From Natrialba taiwanensis DSM 12281 (GTDB lineage Archaea > Halobacteriota > Halobacteria > Halobacteriales > Natrialbaceae), in NCBI RefSeq assembly GCF_000337595.1, contig NZ_AOIL01000064.1:636-36100 (forward strand): a DNA stretch of 35,465 bases. Direction: 5' to 3'. Under the pieces are notes generated by a model, which did not search any database, was not told where the DNA came from, and was given only the letters and a program-made list of their open reading frames with translations. The position numbers were made by a program, and so were the translations under genes. Shown in pieces: positions 15,282 to 20,714 of the stretch (its first letter is position 1; every line of letters starts with the position of its first letter).

Positions 15282-15841
15282 ACGGACCGTTGACTTGGTT
15301 GCGGGACTACTCGATTTCTCGCTTTGTGTCTCATGGGAGTACCATGTATCGCTGTGATTCCGAAATGTGTTCGGAATGGGGAACCACGAAACTTCCGGGC
15401 GTAGCTGTTCGGTCCAATGAACCACGAATAGTGGGCGAAGAATGACCGTCAGCTAGGCGTTCGTGAGTGGATTCTGGTTGATACCGGCTGTGTGGATACG
15501 ACTGCTGTGGAACGGAACTGCAACTGAATGACCGCGTCAAGATTCTGATGGTGATCGATGATTCAACTGTTTCACCGCCGATTCCATGGGTTACGCCGAT
15601 CTCCCTCAAACTTTATCACCTTCTCTTGAGGAAATCGTGCTGGTCCAGTTTGCCAGTTCCCGGTGACACCTGACGTCTTCAGTGAACTCTCTTGAGTTGT
15701 CGTTCGTTATAGACCGACGACCGATCGAGCGACAGACAAGCAAGTAGCCAGACAAGCAAACAACCGCTTTCGTGCTGGGTTTCTGTTAGCCGTAGAGTGT
15801 GAAAGCCTTCTCAGAGTAGTGTGAGCAAGCCGGCGACAGCT
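15282..15841. other. Gene-free stretch between two convergent genes
   Basis: No gene was recognised in about 560 bp. It holds a perfect hairpin at 15357-15377 (ATTCCGAA, 5-nt loop, TTCGGAAT), which could end the glycosyltransferase transcript, and a direct repeat AGACAAGCAA near 15732 and 15749. The open frame at 15331-15609 (minus) has no family features. Confidence 0.5.
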
Positions 15842-16738
15842 TCATCTATCGACATCAGCTGTCTCCGGATCGTTCTGTTCGGCTGCTCTCGTTCCTTCAC
15901 CAGGGATTTCTGCATCGTCCATTAGGAGAACGCGCCGTTCGGTGTATTCGAGGCCGTTTTTGCGCTGACGCTTCCGTTTGATTGCGAGCCGATTCTTCGA
16001 AAGATCGAGTAGAGCGTCGATCGTCCTCGAGACGAGCTTCTTCGCATAGCCATCACTGATCCCTTTCTCTTGCCGACGGATCCAGTGTTTCATATCGCTA
16101 GCCGAGACGTATTCACTGACGCCTGTACTCCCTTTCTCCCACGGGTTATCTCCTACTCCTGGGTCGGTGCGTGCCTTCCAGAGCTTTGCTGCAAGGCGTG
16201 AGGGCAGCGAGGACGTGGTTGCATGGAGCATGTCGTCGTCCATCTTCGCAAGTTGCTGAATCGGCAGCAGATCGCTGTGTGCGAGCGCGACATCGCTGCC
16301 ACGATCAAGTGGATCATCACTCTCAGGCAGACGGAAGTATTGTCTGCCGTCGTCTTTCTTAACCCGCTCAAGGCGACCATCAGCAACGCTGATCTCGCTT
16401 TCGTCGACGTTCTCCTCGAGCAAATGGGCGCCCTTCTCGAGTTCACGTGCTTGGAGCTCGCCGACGCGGTCTTTGTTCGCGTTGAGTTTCTTTTCGTGAG
16501 CGTCTAGGCGAGCCTCGATCGGCGTCCGTGTTGCTTCGAGTTCAACGACGCGTTCCTCAAGGCGATCGTTCTCCGTCTTGGTCTGTTCGAGTTTGGTTTC
16601 GAGTCGGTCGAGGCGTGTCTCCTTCTGCTCGAGGGCGGATTCGAGGGTCATGATCCGTTCTCGAAGTGGCTCGAGTTCATCTTCCAATGCCTGGGTCGTC
16701 GCTGTGTTCGGTCCGGATTGCTCGGAATTTGTGCTCAT
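15842..16738 (-). CDS. Coiled-coil protein of the PadR / TnpB-like RuvC cluster
   Basis: This 298-residue acidic protein has a long N-terminal coiled coil (about residues 15-105: ALEDELEPLRERIMTLESAL with regular Leu/Glu heptads, ending VGELQARELEKG). A globular C-terminal part follows (about 120-290) with RQYFRLPESDDPLDRGSDVA, LLPIQQLAKMDDDMLHA, LAAKLWKARTD and a basic winged-helix-like stretch (SDMKHWIRRQEKGISDGYAK, LVSRTIDALLDLSKNRLAI KRKRQRKNG). I recognise it only as a haloarchaeal plasmid/island protein with no assigned function. The basic C-terminus could bind DNA or RNA. It is the third gene of a minus-strand set, 161 bp after the TnpB-like gene. Confidence 0.75.
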   Translation of the reverse strand: MSTNSEQSGPNTATTQALEDELEPLRERIMTLESALEQKETRLDRLETKLEQTKTENDRLEERVVELEATRTPIEARLDAHEKKLNANKDRVGELQARELEKGAHLLEENVDESEISVADGRLERVKKDDGRQYFRLPESDDPLDRGSDVALAHSDLLPIQQLAKMDDDMLHATTSSLPSRLAAKLWKARTDPGVGDNPWEKGSTGVSEYVSASDMKHWIRRQEKGISDGYAKKLVSRTIDALLDLSKNRLAIKRKRQRKNGLEYTERRVLLMDDAEIPGEGTRAAEQNDPETADVDR

Positions 16739-16899
16739 GGATGATGTCGGTGATTGCAGTGTGGTCGAAAAACCGGTGCAACTGGGTGCGCTGTTGCTGT
16801 CAGTGGGTGTGGCGAGAGTGGCCGGTCGCAGTCGAGATGTGGGTGATCGATGCCACTTGTGGAACCACCGTAGTCCCGTTCGTTGCGGGCTGTCGGTGG

Positions 16900-17592
16900 C
16901 TAGGTATCGTTCTCGGCGATTCCACCATCAGCGAGCATTGCAGGCCGATCGTCTGGGGAAGCTGGCCGAGAAGGCCGATAGGCACACTGCTGGCCGGGAT
17001 AGTATCGCTGTGCAAGAACCTTCGCGGCGTTGTGATCGGCGTAGACGCCGTCGACGTGACAGTCCGGGTTAGTACACCGGAAGGTCTTGTTCAGCGGCCG
17101 TTCACCCAGAACACCGCAGGCGTGGCACTCTTGGGAGGAGAACTCTTCTGGAACTGTTGTGACTTCAATACTATACTCGGCGGCGATCGTGCGAAGCCGG
17201 CGATGGGCTATTGGCAGCAGCCACGAAGTGCCTCGATGAGCGTCAGGGTCGGTGACCCACGCCCAGAGGTCAGATTTGAAGTGACTATCCTCGGTAACCA
17301 GAACGGGATGTTCGTATGCGCTCGCGTACTCACAGAGTTCTCGAGCGGCAGTGTCGATCGCCTCGATGAGGACAACTCGACGGTCCTTGACGTACGCCAC
17401 GATTGTATCCCGGTCGAACTCGCTGCCAAGTAGGGCGGCAGTCTGTTCGCGAAGCGCGTCTAACTGAACACAGAGGTCGTCGCCGCTGATCGTGTAGGCT
17501 CCTTTCCAGTCTGGCATTTGCACCGGACAGGCGGTGTAGAGATTGTACTCGCCGAGGTCGACCCCAACCGCGGTGGGATCGGACTTATGCAT
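16900..17592 (-). CDS. Stand-alone TnpB-type RuvC/zinc-ribbon protein
   Basis: Starting at ATG 17592, this 230-residue protein contains only the C-terminal half of a TnpB/OrfB protein. RuvC-I is AVGVDLGEYNLYT (D12), RuvC-II is VLVTEDSHFKSDLW (E101), the zinc ribbon has C156-x2-C159 and C173-x4-C178, and RuvC-III is GVYADHNAAKVLA (D186). All three catalytic acids are kept. The N-terminal REC/WED part of canonical TnpB (about 400 residues) is absent. The longer upstream open frame (to 17826) is low-complexity and overlaps the PadR-like gene, so it was not used. The start overlaps the preceding gene's stop by 8 nt, indicating translational coupling. A nuclease role or an RNA guide is possible but not shown. 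There is no transposase tnpA, and no element ends were seen. Confidence 0.8.
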   Translation of the reverse strand: MHKSDPTAVGVDLGEYNLYTACPVQMPDWKGAYTISGDDLCVQLDALREQTAALLGSEFDRDTIVAYVKDRRVVLIEAIDTAARELCEYASAYEHPVLVTEDSHFKSDLWAWVTDPDAHRGTSWLLPIAHRRLRTIAAEYSIEVTTVPEEFSSQECHACGVLGERPLNKTFRCTNPDCHVDGVYADHNAAKVLAQRYYPGQQCAYRPSRPASPDDRPAMLADGGIAENDT

Positions 17593-18568
17593 CGCGACCA
17601 CCTGATGAGGGCTCCGCTTCGAGTGCGTCTGGAGCAGGCCCCTGGTTAGCGGTCGTTTCGCCATCGGAGTCGATAACCGCTGATGTGTCAATGGCCTCCT
17701 CGAGGTCGGTCTCGAGGCAGTCCTGTGTCTCTCGCAATCGAGCGGCCCAAGACGCTGCTTTGTTTGTCGAGATGCCGGGGACTTGTTCCCAGTCGAGCTG
17801 TTCGTGGCCAGTCGCGAGTTTCTCAAGGCGGTTCAGTGTTCGGTGACCGTCGATCTGGCTCTCAAGGTCGGCCGGGGAATGTTCGTCATCGCGGTCTTCC
17901 ATGGGCTGGCTTCCGCCCGCCTTGACCGAGTGATCGCCCATCGAGTTGTCCTGGTCACCAGTCGGGTTGCGCAACTGGACACAAACGTTCGAAATCGGTT
18001 CGCGACCGGTTTCCCGCCACTCGCCGTCGTGGTGTTCGTGGGTGATCCGCCACGTTTCCCCGCCCGTGTCGGGGATGATCGTCATGCGACGGCGACGATT
18101 GTCGATCGTCCGGTACTCAAAGATGAACTCGAGTGGATAGTCCGCAGTATTTCCCATCACTACACACCCCCCATCGGCAACCGGCTGGTGCGGTGCGATA
18201 TTACAGGCGTCTGCAAGCTGGTGGGTACGTTTCTTGAGAAGTGCGTGTGCGGTGTCGGTGAGCGTATACTCGTTCGTGCGACGGTCGAGTTCAGATTTCT
18301 TGAGGAGGTTCTGGTCGACGAGGTCGTCGAGGTTCGGGTAGAGTCGGCCGTGGTTGACCTCGCCGTAGCGCGTCTCGAGGTCGGCTTTGATTGCGAGCCC
18401 GTAGGATGGGTCGGCACTGTTCTTGAGGCGGGCGATCGCTGCAAGGATATCGCGTTGGAACGCAGTGAGATCGGCCCAAGTCGTGTCGTCGGCGGGTTGG
18501 TTGGTGTTCTCGAGCGATTCCTCTAGTCGTTCGGGACCTTCAAGGCCCCGTGAAGTGTTGTCGGACAT
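17585..18568 (-). CDS. PadR-like winged-helix regulator coupled to the TnpB-like gene
   Basis: Starting at ATG 18568 (MSDNTSRGLEGPERLEESLE), this is a 327-residue protein. The frame can be extended to a TTG at 18649, but that part lies over the operator repeats and reads as basic low complexity. Residues about 35-115 form a PadR/phiH1-like winged helix (LTAFQRDILAAIARLKNSAD, SYGLAIKADLETRYGEVNHG, RLYPNLDDLVDQNLLKKSEL). A beta-rich middle region (YPLEFIFEYRTIDNRRRRMT IIPD) follows. The C-terminal part contains a helix-hairpin-helix-like LDWEQVPGISTNKAASWAAR. It is first in the minus-strand set with the RuvC and coiled-coil genes. It is probably autoregulatory through TCCAACCAAT repeats upstream. 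Confidence 0.78.
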   Translation of the reverse strand: MSDNTSRGLEGPERLEESLENTNQPADDTTWADLTAFQRDILAAIARLKNSADPSYGLAIKADLETRYGEVNHGRLYPNLDDLVDQNLLKKSELDRRTNEYTLTDTAHALLKKRTHQLADACNIAPHQPVADGGCVVMGNTADYPLEFIFEYRTIDNRRRRMTIIPDTGGETWRITHEHHDGEWRETGREPISNVCVQLRNPTGDQDNSMGDHSVKAGGSQPMEDRDDEHSPADLESQIDGHRTLNRLEKLATGHEQLDWEQVPGISTNKAASWAARLRETQDCLETDLEEAIDTSAVIDSDGETTANQGPAPDALEAEPSSGGRDA

Positions 18569-18635
18569 GGCTTCCGTACCGCGTCTACGGGAGCCGTTGC
18601 GAGCTGGTGTCGCAGCACCGACTCGCATTTTCCGC

Positions 18636-18686
18636 ATTGGTCCAACCAATAGTTGGGGTTGCGGAATCTCCCGTTATCCAACCAAT
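18636..18686. promoter_or_regulatory. TCCAACCAAT direct repeats and dyad upstream of the PadR-like gene
   Basis: TCCAACCAAT occurs at 18641-18650 and 18677-18686 (36 bp start to start). The first copy lies in the dyads ATTGGT-CCA-ACCAAT (18636-18650) and CCAAC-CAATA-GTTGG (18643-18657). On the minus strand these lie downstream of a TATA-like TTTATTATGA (about 18698-18707), between promoter and start codon, a place suited to repression. They are likely operators for the PadR-like protein or the divergent regulator. Confidence 0.5.
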
Positions 18687-18712
18687 CTATACCCCATCAT
18701 AATAAACTTGGC

Positions 18713-18796
18713 TACGATATCGTAATGCAAAAACTTCGATATAGTAGCCTATTTCTGACACTTCGAAGGATGTAAGGATCTGATCTGTGACTTCGA
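18713..18796. promoter_or_regulatory. Palindrome and three ACTTCGA repeats upstream of the winged-helix gene
   Basis: TACGATATCGTA at 18713-18724 is a perfect 12-bp palindrome. ACTTCGA occurs three times in direct orientation at 18733-18739, 18760-18766 and 18790-18796 (spacings 27 and 30 bp, near three helical turns); the last ends 4 bp before ATG 18801. This is a candidate autoregulatory operator array for the phiH1-like protein. Confidence 0.5.
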
Positions 18797-18800
18797 AACA

Positions 18801-19070
18801 ATGAGAAAACCCGGTAGTTGGATGCAAAACCCGACTGATGAGCGGATTCTAGAGGTTCTTGACACCGGGTTAATGCTTGGACCAACTGCGATTGCAAAGA
18901 ATATCGACAAACATCGCGTCACAGTAAGTGGTCGCCTTAGAGAACTCCGTAAATATGGTCTCGTCGAGTGTCCCGAAGAAGGCTATTACGAGATCACCGA
19001 TCTCGGTAAGCAATATCTTGAGGGCGAGCTTAACGCGGGCGAACTTGAACCGGTCGGAGACACTGAATAA
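18801..19070 (+). CDS. PhiH1-repressor-like winged-helix protein
   Basis: This 89-residue protein is a single winged helix: WMQNPTDERILEVLDTGLML, GPTAIAKNIDKHRVTVSGRL (recognition helix), RELRKYGLVECPEEGYYEIT (wing), DLGKQYLEGEL. This is the layout of the haloarchaeal phiH1 repressor family, small DNA-binding repressors of viruses and plasmids. It is divergent from the PadR-like gene, with 232 bp of repeat-rich DNA between the two starts. That pairing resembles a lysogeny or plasmid-type switch. The three ACTTCGA repeats directly before its start suggest self-repression. Confidence 0.8.
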   Translation: MRKPGSWMQNPTDERILEVLDTGLMLGPTAIAKNIDKHRVTVSGRLRELRKYGLVECPEEGYYEITDLGKQYLEGELNAGELEPVGDTE

Positions 19071-19323
19071 GGATCTCTGCTTAGGTTACCTACTCAAGAC
19101 GCGGTTAGTCTGTTGGTGAACACAGACTCTAGATTTCGCACCGTCTCATGATGATCTGAGATTCAGTATGTGTGAATGATAAATTGGAGAAACACTATGG
19201 AAGTCTCTACGGTGCATTCCGGTTATACACACGATTGGTCCGCGCTTGTGTGCACATTTGAGAAGCGGAGTTTGGCATCTCGCAACCCCTGGGGACCCCA
19301 CAGGGAAGAAGAAGACCCCGAGG

Positions 19324-20006: not shown

Positions 20007-20714
20007 ATGATCAGCGGTTCCCAAACCTATAGGATCAGTCTATCTAACGTATTGTCTATGAAACGCTCAGTTTGGAACCATCGATTAAGATTACATCTAC
20101 CAAAGATAGTGAGTGCTATTACACTGCTAATCTTCATAGATCACTCTCTACAATTAGGGAATCTTATGATCGATTGGATCGGGGTTGGGTTATTGATATT
20201 GATAATATTTGCACCCTATGCACCCCACTTTCGTAGACTTAGCTTAGGTGATATTGAGATGGAAATCGCTCCTGAAATTGACAGAGTGAAAGAAAGGCAG
20301 GAAGACCAACTTAACCAAGAATCACAAGACCGTGAACAAACATATCGTGACAATCAGATCGAAGATGAACTATACTCTAGCTTAGAAGAAGGGCCGCTAG
20401 TTGCAGTGTCCAATTTGAGGCACATTATTACAACATATTTGAAAAATATCGCAAAGCGAGAGGAGTTAGAGTATCAAGGAATTAATTCACAACGGTTAGT
20501 GAAGGAGTTAAACCAATGAGATGTGATTGATGACAATCTCGCACAGACTATCACTGATGTGATCTCTCTTTGTAATAATGCGATCCACACAACCGGCATC
20601 AACCATGACAAAGCTTTAGAAATTATTGAGATTGGAAAGTCTGTCTTATCAGATATAAAATGGAGATATCATGAAATAGCTGTCACACCTTCAGAAGATG
20701 TTGAAGAGGGTTGA
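20007..20714 (+). pseudogene. Membrane protein with an in-frame TGA (170 + 63 residues)
   Basis: The first part (20007-20519, 170 aa) has two hydrophobic segments (IVSAITLLIFIDHSLQLG and WIGVGLLILIIFAPYAPHF), a charged coiled coil (EIDRVKERQEDQLNQESQDR) and a soluble part ending QRLVKELNQ. After TGA at 20517-20519 the same frame continues DVIDDNLAQTITDVISLCNN and on to 20714. The joined product of about 235 residues reads as one continuous fold (…LRHIITTYLKN…LVKELNQ-DVIDDNLAQTITDVI…), so the TGA is most simply a nonsense mutation; a 3-nt later GTG (20523) could restart the tail. The start is supported by AAGGTGGG about 7 nt before ATG. AT-rich composition. No named family recognised. Confidence 0.6.

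Follow-up and report, generated by a model that had tools for sequence, protein, structure and literature searches.

A structured leader RNA shared with SNJ2-type integration operons precedes a lone TnpB-derived RuvC gene in a probable mobile cassette of Natrialba taiwanensis

The window analysed here, to which all coordinates refer, is a 35,465-nucleotide (nt) stretch of Natrialba taiwanensis DSM 12281. It carries a phiH1-like repressor gene (REP) and, divergent from it, genes for a PadR-like protein, a lone RuvC/zinc-ribbon protein derived from TnpB, and a coiled-coil protein. The set probably forms a mobile cassette, and its lone RuvC gene would be driven, in place of a tyrosine integrase gene, by the control region of an integration operon like that of the pleolipovirus SNJ2. 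The evidence is good for the control and RNA parts of this reading; what the nuclease does, we infer. The original prediction made for this DNA had named the four genes, all of which lie where it placed them, with the RuvC start overlapping the preceding PadR stop by exactly 8 nt. A structured RNA between the repressor and PadR genes, a noncoding tail, and sharp block borders go beyond it. The leader RNA is the most surprising part of the system and also the easiest to test. The features are the following.

18801..19070, plus strand: phiH1-like winged-helix repressor (REP), 89 amino acids; PHROG 2440, transcriptional regulator, 7e-32
17585..18568, minus strand: PadR-like open reading frame (ORF), 327 amino acids; Pfam PadR, 2.1e-12
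16900..17592, minus strand: lone RuvC/zinc-ribbon protein, 230 amino acids; Pfam Cas12f1-like_TNB, 1.9e-10
15842..16738, minus strand: coiled-coil protein, 298 amino acids, downstream of RuvC
18700..18706, minus strand: TATA-like box TTTATTA in the promoter of the RuvC operon, located by inspecting the sequence
18521..18682, minus strand: structured leader RNA (P1 to P5), reaching into the first PadR codons; covariance model R1
18668..18674, minus strand: P1 5' strand, ACGGGAG; alignment A6, columns 9-16
18587..18593, minus strand: shared middle strand, CTCCCGT, pairing with the P1 5' strand or the P4 3' strand
18599..18626, minus strand: P3 hairpin
18569..18577, minus strand: P4 3' strand, ACGGAAGCC, abutting the ATG; P4 is paired in 96.8% of cells over 62 copies
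18532..18552, minus strand: P5 hairpin, within the opening codons of the leader/PadR ORF; 62-copy alignment
15660..15803, minus strand: conserved noncoding element (tail) that follows the coiled-coil gene; alignment over 21 loci
15346..19273, no strand: whole cassette, a block common to N. asiatica with 88% identity and differing flanks

The leader is a conserved multi-hairpin element between REP and RuvC. P1 (ACGGGAG...CTCCCGT) encloses a region with P2 and P3, and P4 (GGCTCCCGT...ACGGAAGCC), located directly before the ATG, uses the same middle strand as P1. When 16 loci are aligned plainly with MAFFT, pairing covers 96% of cells, and covariation scores higher than in any of 500 shuffles. 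For 62 model-aligned copies the covariation is 0.161 (0.094 when shuffled), and 0 of 500 shuffles reach the score. The three strands change together at columns 12, 116, and 132, which read CGC in 29, GCG in 28, and ATA in 2 of the 62 copies, and in P5 96% of cells are paired, with 3 pairs changed on both sides. The P1/P4 alternation may thus act as a switch. Folding energy of the leader is below that of dinucleotide shuffles in all 34 RuvC loci that have it (mean z −3.3; −4.8 in the window). In 52 of the 62 copies P1 is preceded by a TATA-like box at a fixed distance of 28-33 nt, which predicts a transcript start close to P1. Conservation of the leader as a peptide code is disfavoured: the peptide starts MRNERSRGNEYCP, MRKDSPRAHNCRAHE, and MSDNTSRGLEGPE differ while the underlying hairpin stays constant, so RNA structure is the better constraint. 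Rfam reported no significant match for either the window leader or that of SNJ2.

The distribution of the leader points to virus integration modules. R1, a covariance model built in this analysis without viral sequences, scores 156 bits in the window leader, which belongs to its seed, and matches 102 of the 125 Natrialbaceae genomes with up to 12 copies each, mostly without RuvC. Across the order, a model designated R2 matches 182 of 392 genomes and 57 of 95 genera. R1 also finds the leader in the isolated pleolipovirus SNJ2 (150 bits, E 1.8e-35), Haloferax virus Halfgib1 (68 bits), and HRPV9 (60 bits), and in all three it sits between a phiH1-like repressor and the integrase operon. The divergent phiH1-like repressor had been likened to a virus or plasmid switch, and a virus-type switch is supported by the same repressor and leader preceding the integrase operon of isolated pleolipoviruses. 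Among 63 further leader copies a divergent repressor accompanies 62 (43 of 43, one of them 1.7 kb off, and 19 of 20 outside Natrialbaceae), and an SNJ2-type integrase follows about 27 of the 43 and 16 of the 20. In nearly all of the 43 copies the ORF after the leader uses the same ATG, and its first peptide is related; the continuation differs, being PadR/orf3 (the commonest case), other small proteins, or RuvC.

The window PadR-like ORF itself consists of an SNJ2 orf3-type N-terminal part and a second domain, SNJ2 gp03 being 57% identical to its residues 1-124. According to the passage on SNJ2 in the review PMC8371274, which cites Wang et al. 2018, orf3 and orf2 are accessory factors of IntSNJ2, and orf1-3 form one operon with two transcription starts; that passage does not mention a leader RNA. 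The SNJ2 integration module (repressor, orf3, orf2, IntSNJ2) and the cassette thus share a control region of the same kind, with the divergent phiH1-like repressor, the same leader, and an orf3-type PadR gene next. They differ in what comes after: the cassette has the lone RuvC and the coiled-coil gene where SNJ2 has the tyrosine integrase and orf2. As for the phiH immunity region (RepR, transcript T1, antisense RNA), it also combines a phiH1-like repressor with a leader before a PadR gene; the early transcript T1 begins with a leader of about 151 nt, which is met by an antisense RNA (record MK002701; see PMC6210493). R1, however, has no match in phiH, so the parallel is functional only.

Leader copies at L101-L140, L147-L166, L141, L143, and L144 mark SNJ2-type integrase operons. 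In PhiCh1 (L145:4047-4180) a weak match of 11 bits (E 0.42) falls between repR and ORF49, where the leader would be expected. A scan of viral contigs for one exact leader motif gave no match, nor did such a scan for RuvC.

The lone RuvC was found in 35 copies in 25 of the 125 Natrialbaceae genomes, covering 9 genera with 56-100% identity; no high-scoring copy outside Natrialbaceae appeared in the 392 genomes of the order. Its distribution is patchy, with several copies per genome and with plasmid and megaplasmid locations. Scores fall from 379 bits for the last full-length copy to 289 and 283 for two partial copies and 124 for a fragment; full-length TnpBs from the 392 genomes reach at most 117 bits. 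D12, E101, and D186, as well as C156, C159, C173, and C178, are invariant in 16 aligned homologues, and the ratio of nonsynonymous to synonymous substitution rates (dN/dS) has a median of 0.32 and a maximum of 0.57 over 508 pairwise comparisons. The sharp score gap, the conserved acids and cysteines, and the dN/dS of 0.32 together indicate that the lone RuvC is not a simple truncation. Its homologues are not remnants of full-length TnpBs, so this outcome, which would have refuted the original prediction, did not occur. In a small tree with two TnpB rows the lone RuvCs form one well supported clade on a long branch. The AlphaFold model has a mean predicted local distance difference test score (pLDDT) of 76.6, exceeding 90 in the core, and shows a RuvC fold, for which Cas12f ranks first among PDB structures, ahead of Fanzor and TnpB. 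The lone RuvCs make up a family under selection, in which nuclease activity is probable.

Like TnpB of IS200/IS605 and IS607 elements, the protein has a RuvC core with D/E/D and a Cys4 zinc ribbon. Unlike TnpB, it has no N-terminal WED/REC half: the 230-residue protein begins at RuvC-I, it matches the NCBI TnpB model (389 positions) only at 324-389, and the gene upstream is PadR or a short leader ORF. No tnpA was recognised among the neighbouring genes called at RuvC loci, and no insertion sequence ends were found at the ends of the block, so these absences, like the retention of the acids and cysteines, stand as first described. TldR proteins, RNA-guided repressors derived from TnpB, no longer have the catalytic acids but still have the guide-binding half. 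Both they and the lone RuvC descend from TnpB and occur in a regulatory setting, yet the lone RuvC is the reverse, as had been proposed, with D12/E101/D186 invariant and the recognition half lost.

At L080:7700-9907 (minus strand) the lone RuvC forms the N-terminal part of a 735-residue protein, whose long C-terminal extension has putative zinc-binding motifs; this is the only copy without an adjacent repressor and leader. A second copy in the genome of the window (L081, C17:118176-118802) is 63% identical, contains an in-frame TGA within the match, and has no coiled-coil gene. Other lone TnpB-type RuvCs, 34-39% identical, lie beside Csm3-like and Cmr3-like genes in a conserved operon (L085:8995-11500 and L086-L089), probably representing the HRAMP-type loci of haloarchaea (PMC8730458). 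The window unit differs from these in having no Cas5/Cas7-like genes, and L085-L089 have no leader at a significant score; the leader match just upstream at L087 is very weak (14 bits). Such RuvCs can thus occur with other recognition modules.

Regarding the neighbourhood of RuvC, in which genes were called with a purpose-made codon-usage finder, REP is divergent and upstream in 34 of the 35 loci (295-1241 nt from the RuvC start; the exception is L080), and the order repressor, leader, RuvC is kept in the same number. The coiled-coil gene is downstream of RuvC in 23 of 35. A whole or partial PadR gene, however, is present in about 4 only (the window, L051, L052, and L084); it is a gene of SNJ2 orf3 type, a common successor of this leader. 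The three minus-strand genes had been regarded as one unit with conserved order: this holds in part for RuvC and the coiled-coil gene, and it fails for PadR as a constant partner. The unit is better drawn as repressor, leader RNA, optional PadR, RuvC, and optional coiled-coil gene with tail. The leader ORF joins RuvC either by the 8-nt overlap or by in-frame fusion, and both arrangements occur. About 10 Natrinema loci (among them L070, L071, L072, L075, L077, L079, L082, and L083) have REP and RuvC, but no coiled-coil gene, beside what reads as a gas-vesicle cluster, and several Natrinema genomes carry the repressor and RuvC at one chromosomal place. No SNJ2-type integrase was found in RuvC loci, and no viral structural genes beside RuvC copies.

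The coiled-coil gene has a dN/dS of 0.23. The AlphaFold secondary structure of the protein's C-terminus has a helix/strand pattern of winged-helix type, so a C-terminal winged helix is probable; a structure search with this protein returned nothing significant. The gene also follows the leader and a small ORF without RuvC at L137 (genome of the window, C42), L134, L139, and L160, and is thus a cargo of its own. The tail after it, about 147 nt long, has a mean identity of 80% over 21 loci, almost no indels, and an abrupt 3' end followed by variable sequence. It occupies the same position in the window and L051-L084. As a coding sequence it was rejected, with stops in all forward frames and no codon periodicity, and Rfam gave no significant match. 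The tail also follows the coiled-coil gene in three loci free of RuvC (L134, L139, and L004). RuvC loci that do not have the gene lack the tail too; L066, where the gene was not called as such, still has the tail. We read it not as a guide for RuvC but as a candidate site bound by the coiled-coil protein, or an RNA belonging to that protein.

As for mobility, the window and N. asiatica share one 3.9-kb block, the flanks of which are wholly different on both sides, and the copy in the window has the appearance of a discrete mobile cassette. For G042, a close relative, the match starts only at window position 20709, leaving no clean empty site. Close to the left end of the block, about 115 bp (15457-15569) recur nearby in N. 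asiatica (L180:18177-18294) with 75% identity.

Several observations weigh against the reading of a mobile cassette under SNJ2-type RNA control. No direct or inverted repeats of at least 9 nt were found at the block ends, and no att site, tRNA gene, recombinase, or empty site was found for the block, so that mobility is suggested by the comparison of two genomes. The 62-copy alignment was fitted to the structure model, which gives it lesser weight. Moreover, 18 of the 34 RuvC leaders are too diverged for model scoring, and for them the support comes from folding and strand arrangement only: their longest pairings average 6.4 and 8.8 nt (4.4 and 5.4 in shuffles) in the same three-strand arrangement. 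In the better-aligned group P4 does no better than shuffles by this test (4.2 vs 4.3), because P4 contains a mismatch, and the evidence there is covariation. The zinc ribbon is poorly modelled by AlphaFold. Finally, the Natrinema copies without the coiled-coil gene mean that its protein is not an obligatory partner of RuvC.

Under the cassette reading, REP would keep the promoter between itself and the RuvC operon off, and once repression is relieved the transcript would open with the structured leader. For the middle strand there would then be two possible partners, the upstream P1 strand and the P4 strand that precedes the start codon; the choice would set translation of the leader/PadR ORF, and RuvC translation would follow through the stop-start overlap or the fusion. 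The RuvC product would be an active nuclease that depends on metal and has no lobe of its own for recognising a target; since the DNA-recognition half of TnpB is missing, a partner must supply the target. Where encoded, the coiled-coil protein, a probable DNA-binding protein tied to the tail element, would be the likeliest supplier of the address. RuvC may cut DNA for upkeep or spread of the cassette, or against related elements. A wider proposal, which we advance tentatively as a serious possibility, is that regulatory RNAs of archaea here gain a new structured class: the leader would be a bistable switch with which SNJ2-type viruses and elements across haloarchaea decide between integration and lysogeny options. 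It would have been reused as the control unit of cargo cassettes, one of them with a new family of lone TnpB-derived nucleases using a protein partner instead of a guide RNA.

Four other explanations were weighed. The nuclease may serve exclusion or defence against competing viruses or plasmids sharing the cassette's target, which is somewhat unlikely: repressors and operators differ between copies, as in immunity systems, the active-site residues are kept, and relatives stand beside Csm3-like and Cmr3-like genes, but no known defence gene adjoins the window unit, and PADLOC matches no system beyond the Cas12/TnpB domain. Domestication of RuvC by the host for DNA repair or gene regulation, with the virus-type control region merely a borrowed promoter, is improbable. 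The original prediction had suggested a domesticated module for regulation, replication/partition or defence, and the purifying selection together with the single chromosomal place beside the gas-vesicle cluster in several Natrinema genomes makes these copies its best fit; the patchy occurrence in one family, the multiple copies and plasmid locations, and the block with different flanks in a close species argue against it.

The two remaining explanations concern the RNA. The inverted repeats of the leader may act as DNA, either as half-sites bound by REP or by some other DNA-binding protein, or as what is left of element ends. The P1 5' and P4 3' strands are near direct repeats, three half-sites of one protein could covary too, and true palindromes also exist upstream near the promoter. 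Nevertheless, the element lies downstream of the promoter in constant orientation to the gene, it contains the separate hairpins P3 and P5, the latter within codons, and its folding energies are well below those of shuffles, which leaves this idea rather doubtful. Very improbable, finally, is an RNA-guided system in which RuvC binds the leader or tail as an omegaRNA-like guide and the coiled-coil protein or the RNA replaces the recognition lobe. The TnpB ancestry, the structured RNA on the same predicted transcript, and the abrupt end of the tail before variable sequence, as in an omegaRNA scaffold with its guide, speak for it. Most leader copies, however, have no RuvC nearby and precede integrase operons, so the leader is not preferred as an omegaRNA of RuvC; the conserved tail tracks the coiled-coil gene, even without RuvC, and not RuvC itself, and has no stable common fold, and the recognition half is missing from RuvC.

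If the cassette reading with its leader switch is true, an RNA layer would be added to lysogeny control in archaeal viruses. The leader is a directly testable element, present in almost half of the haloarchaeal genomes that were searched and in the isolated virus SNJ2, which has a laboratory host, Natrinema sp. J7-1; integrated elements in haloarchaea could be searched for with it. As for the nuclease, the reverse of TldR is kept by selection in 25 genomes, and how such an enzyme would find its target becomes a concrete question.

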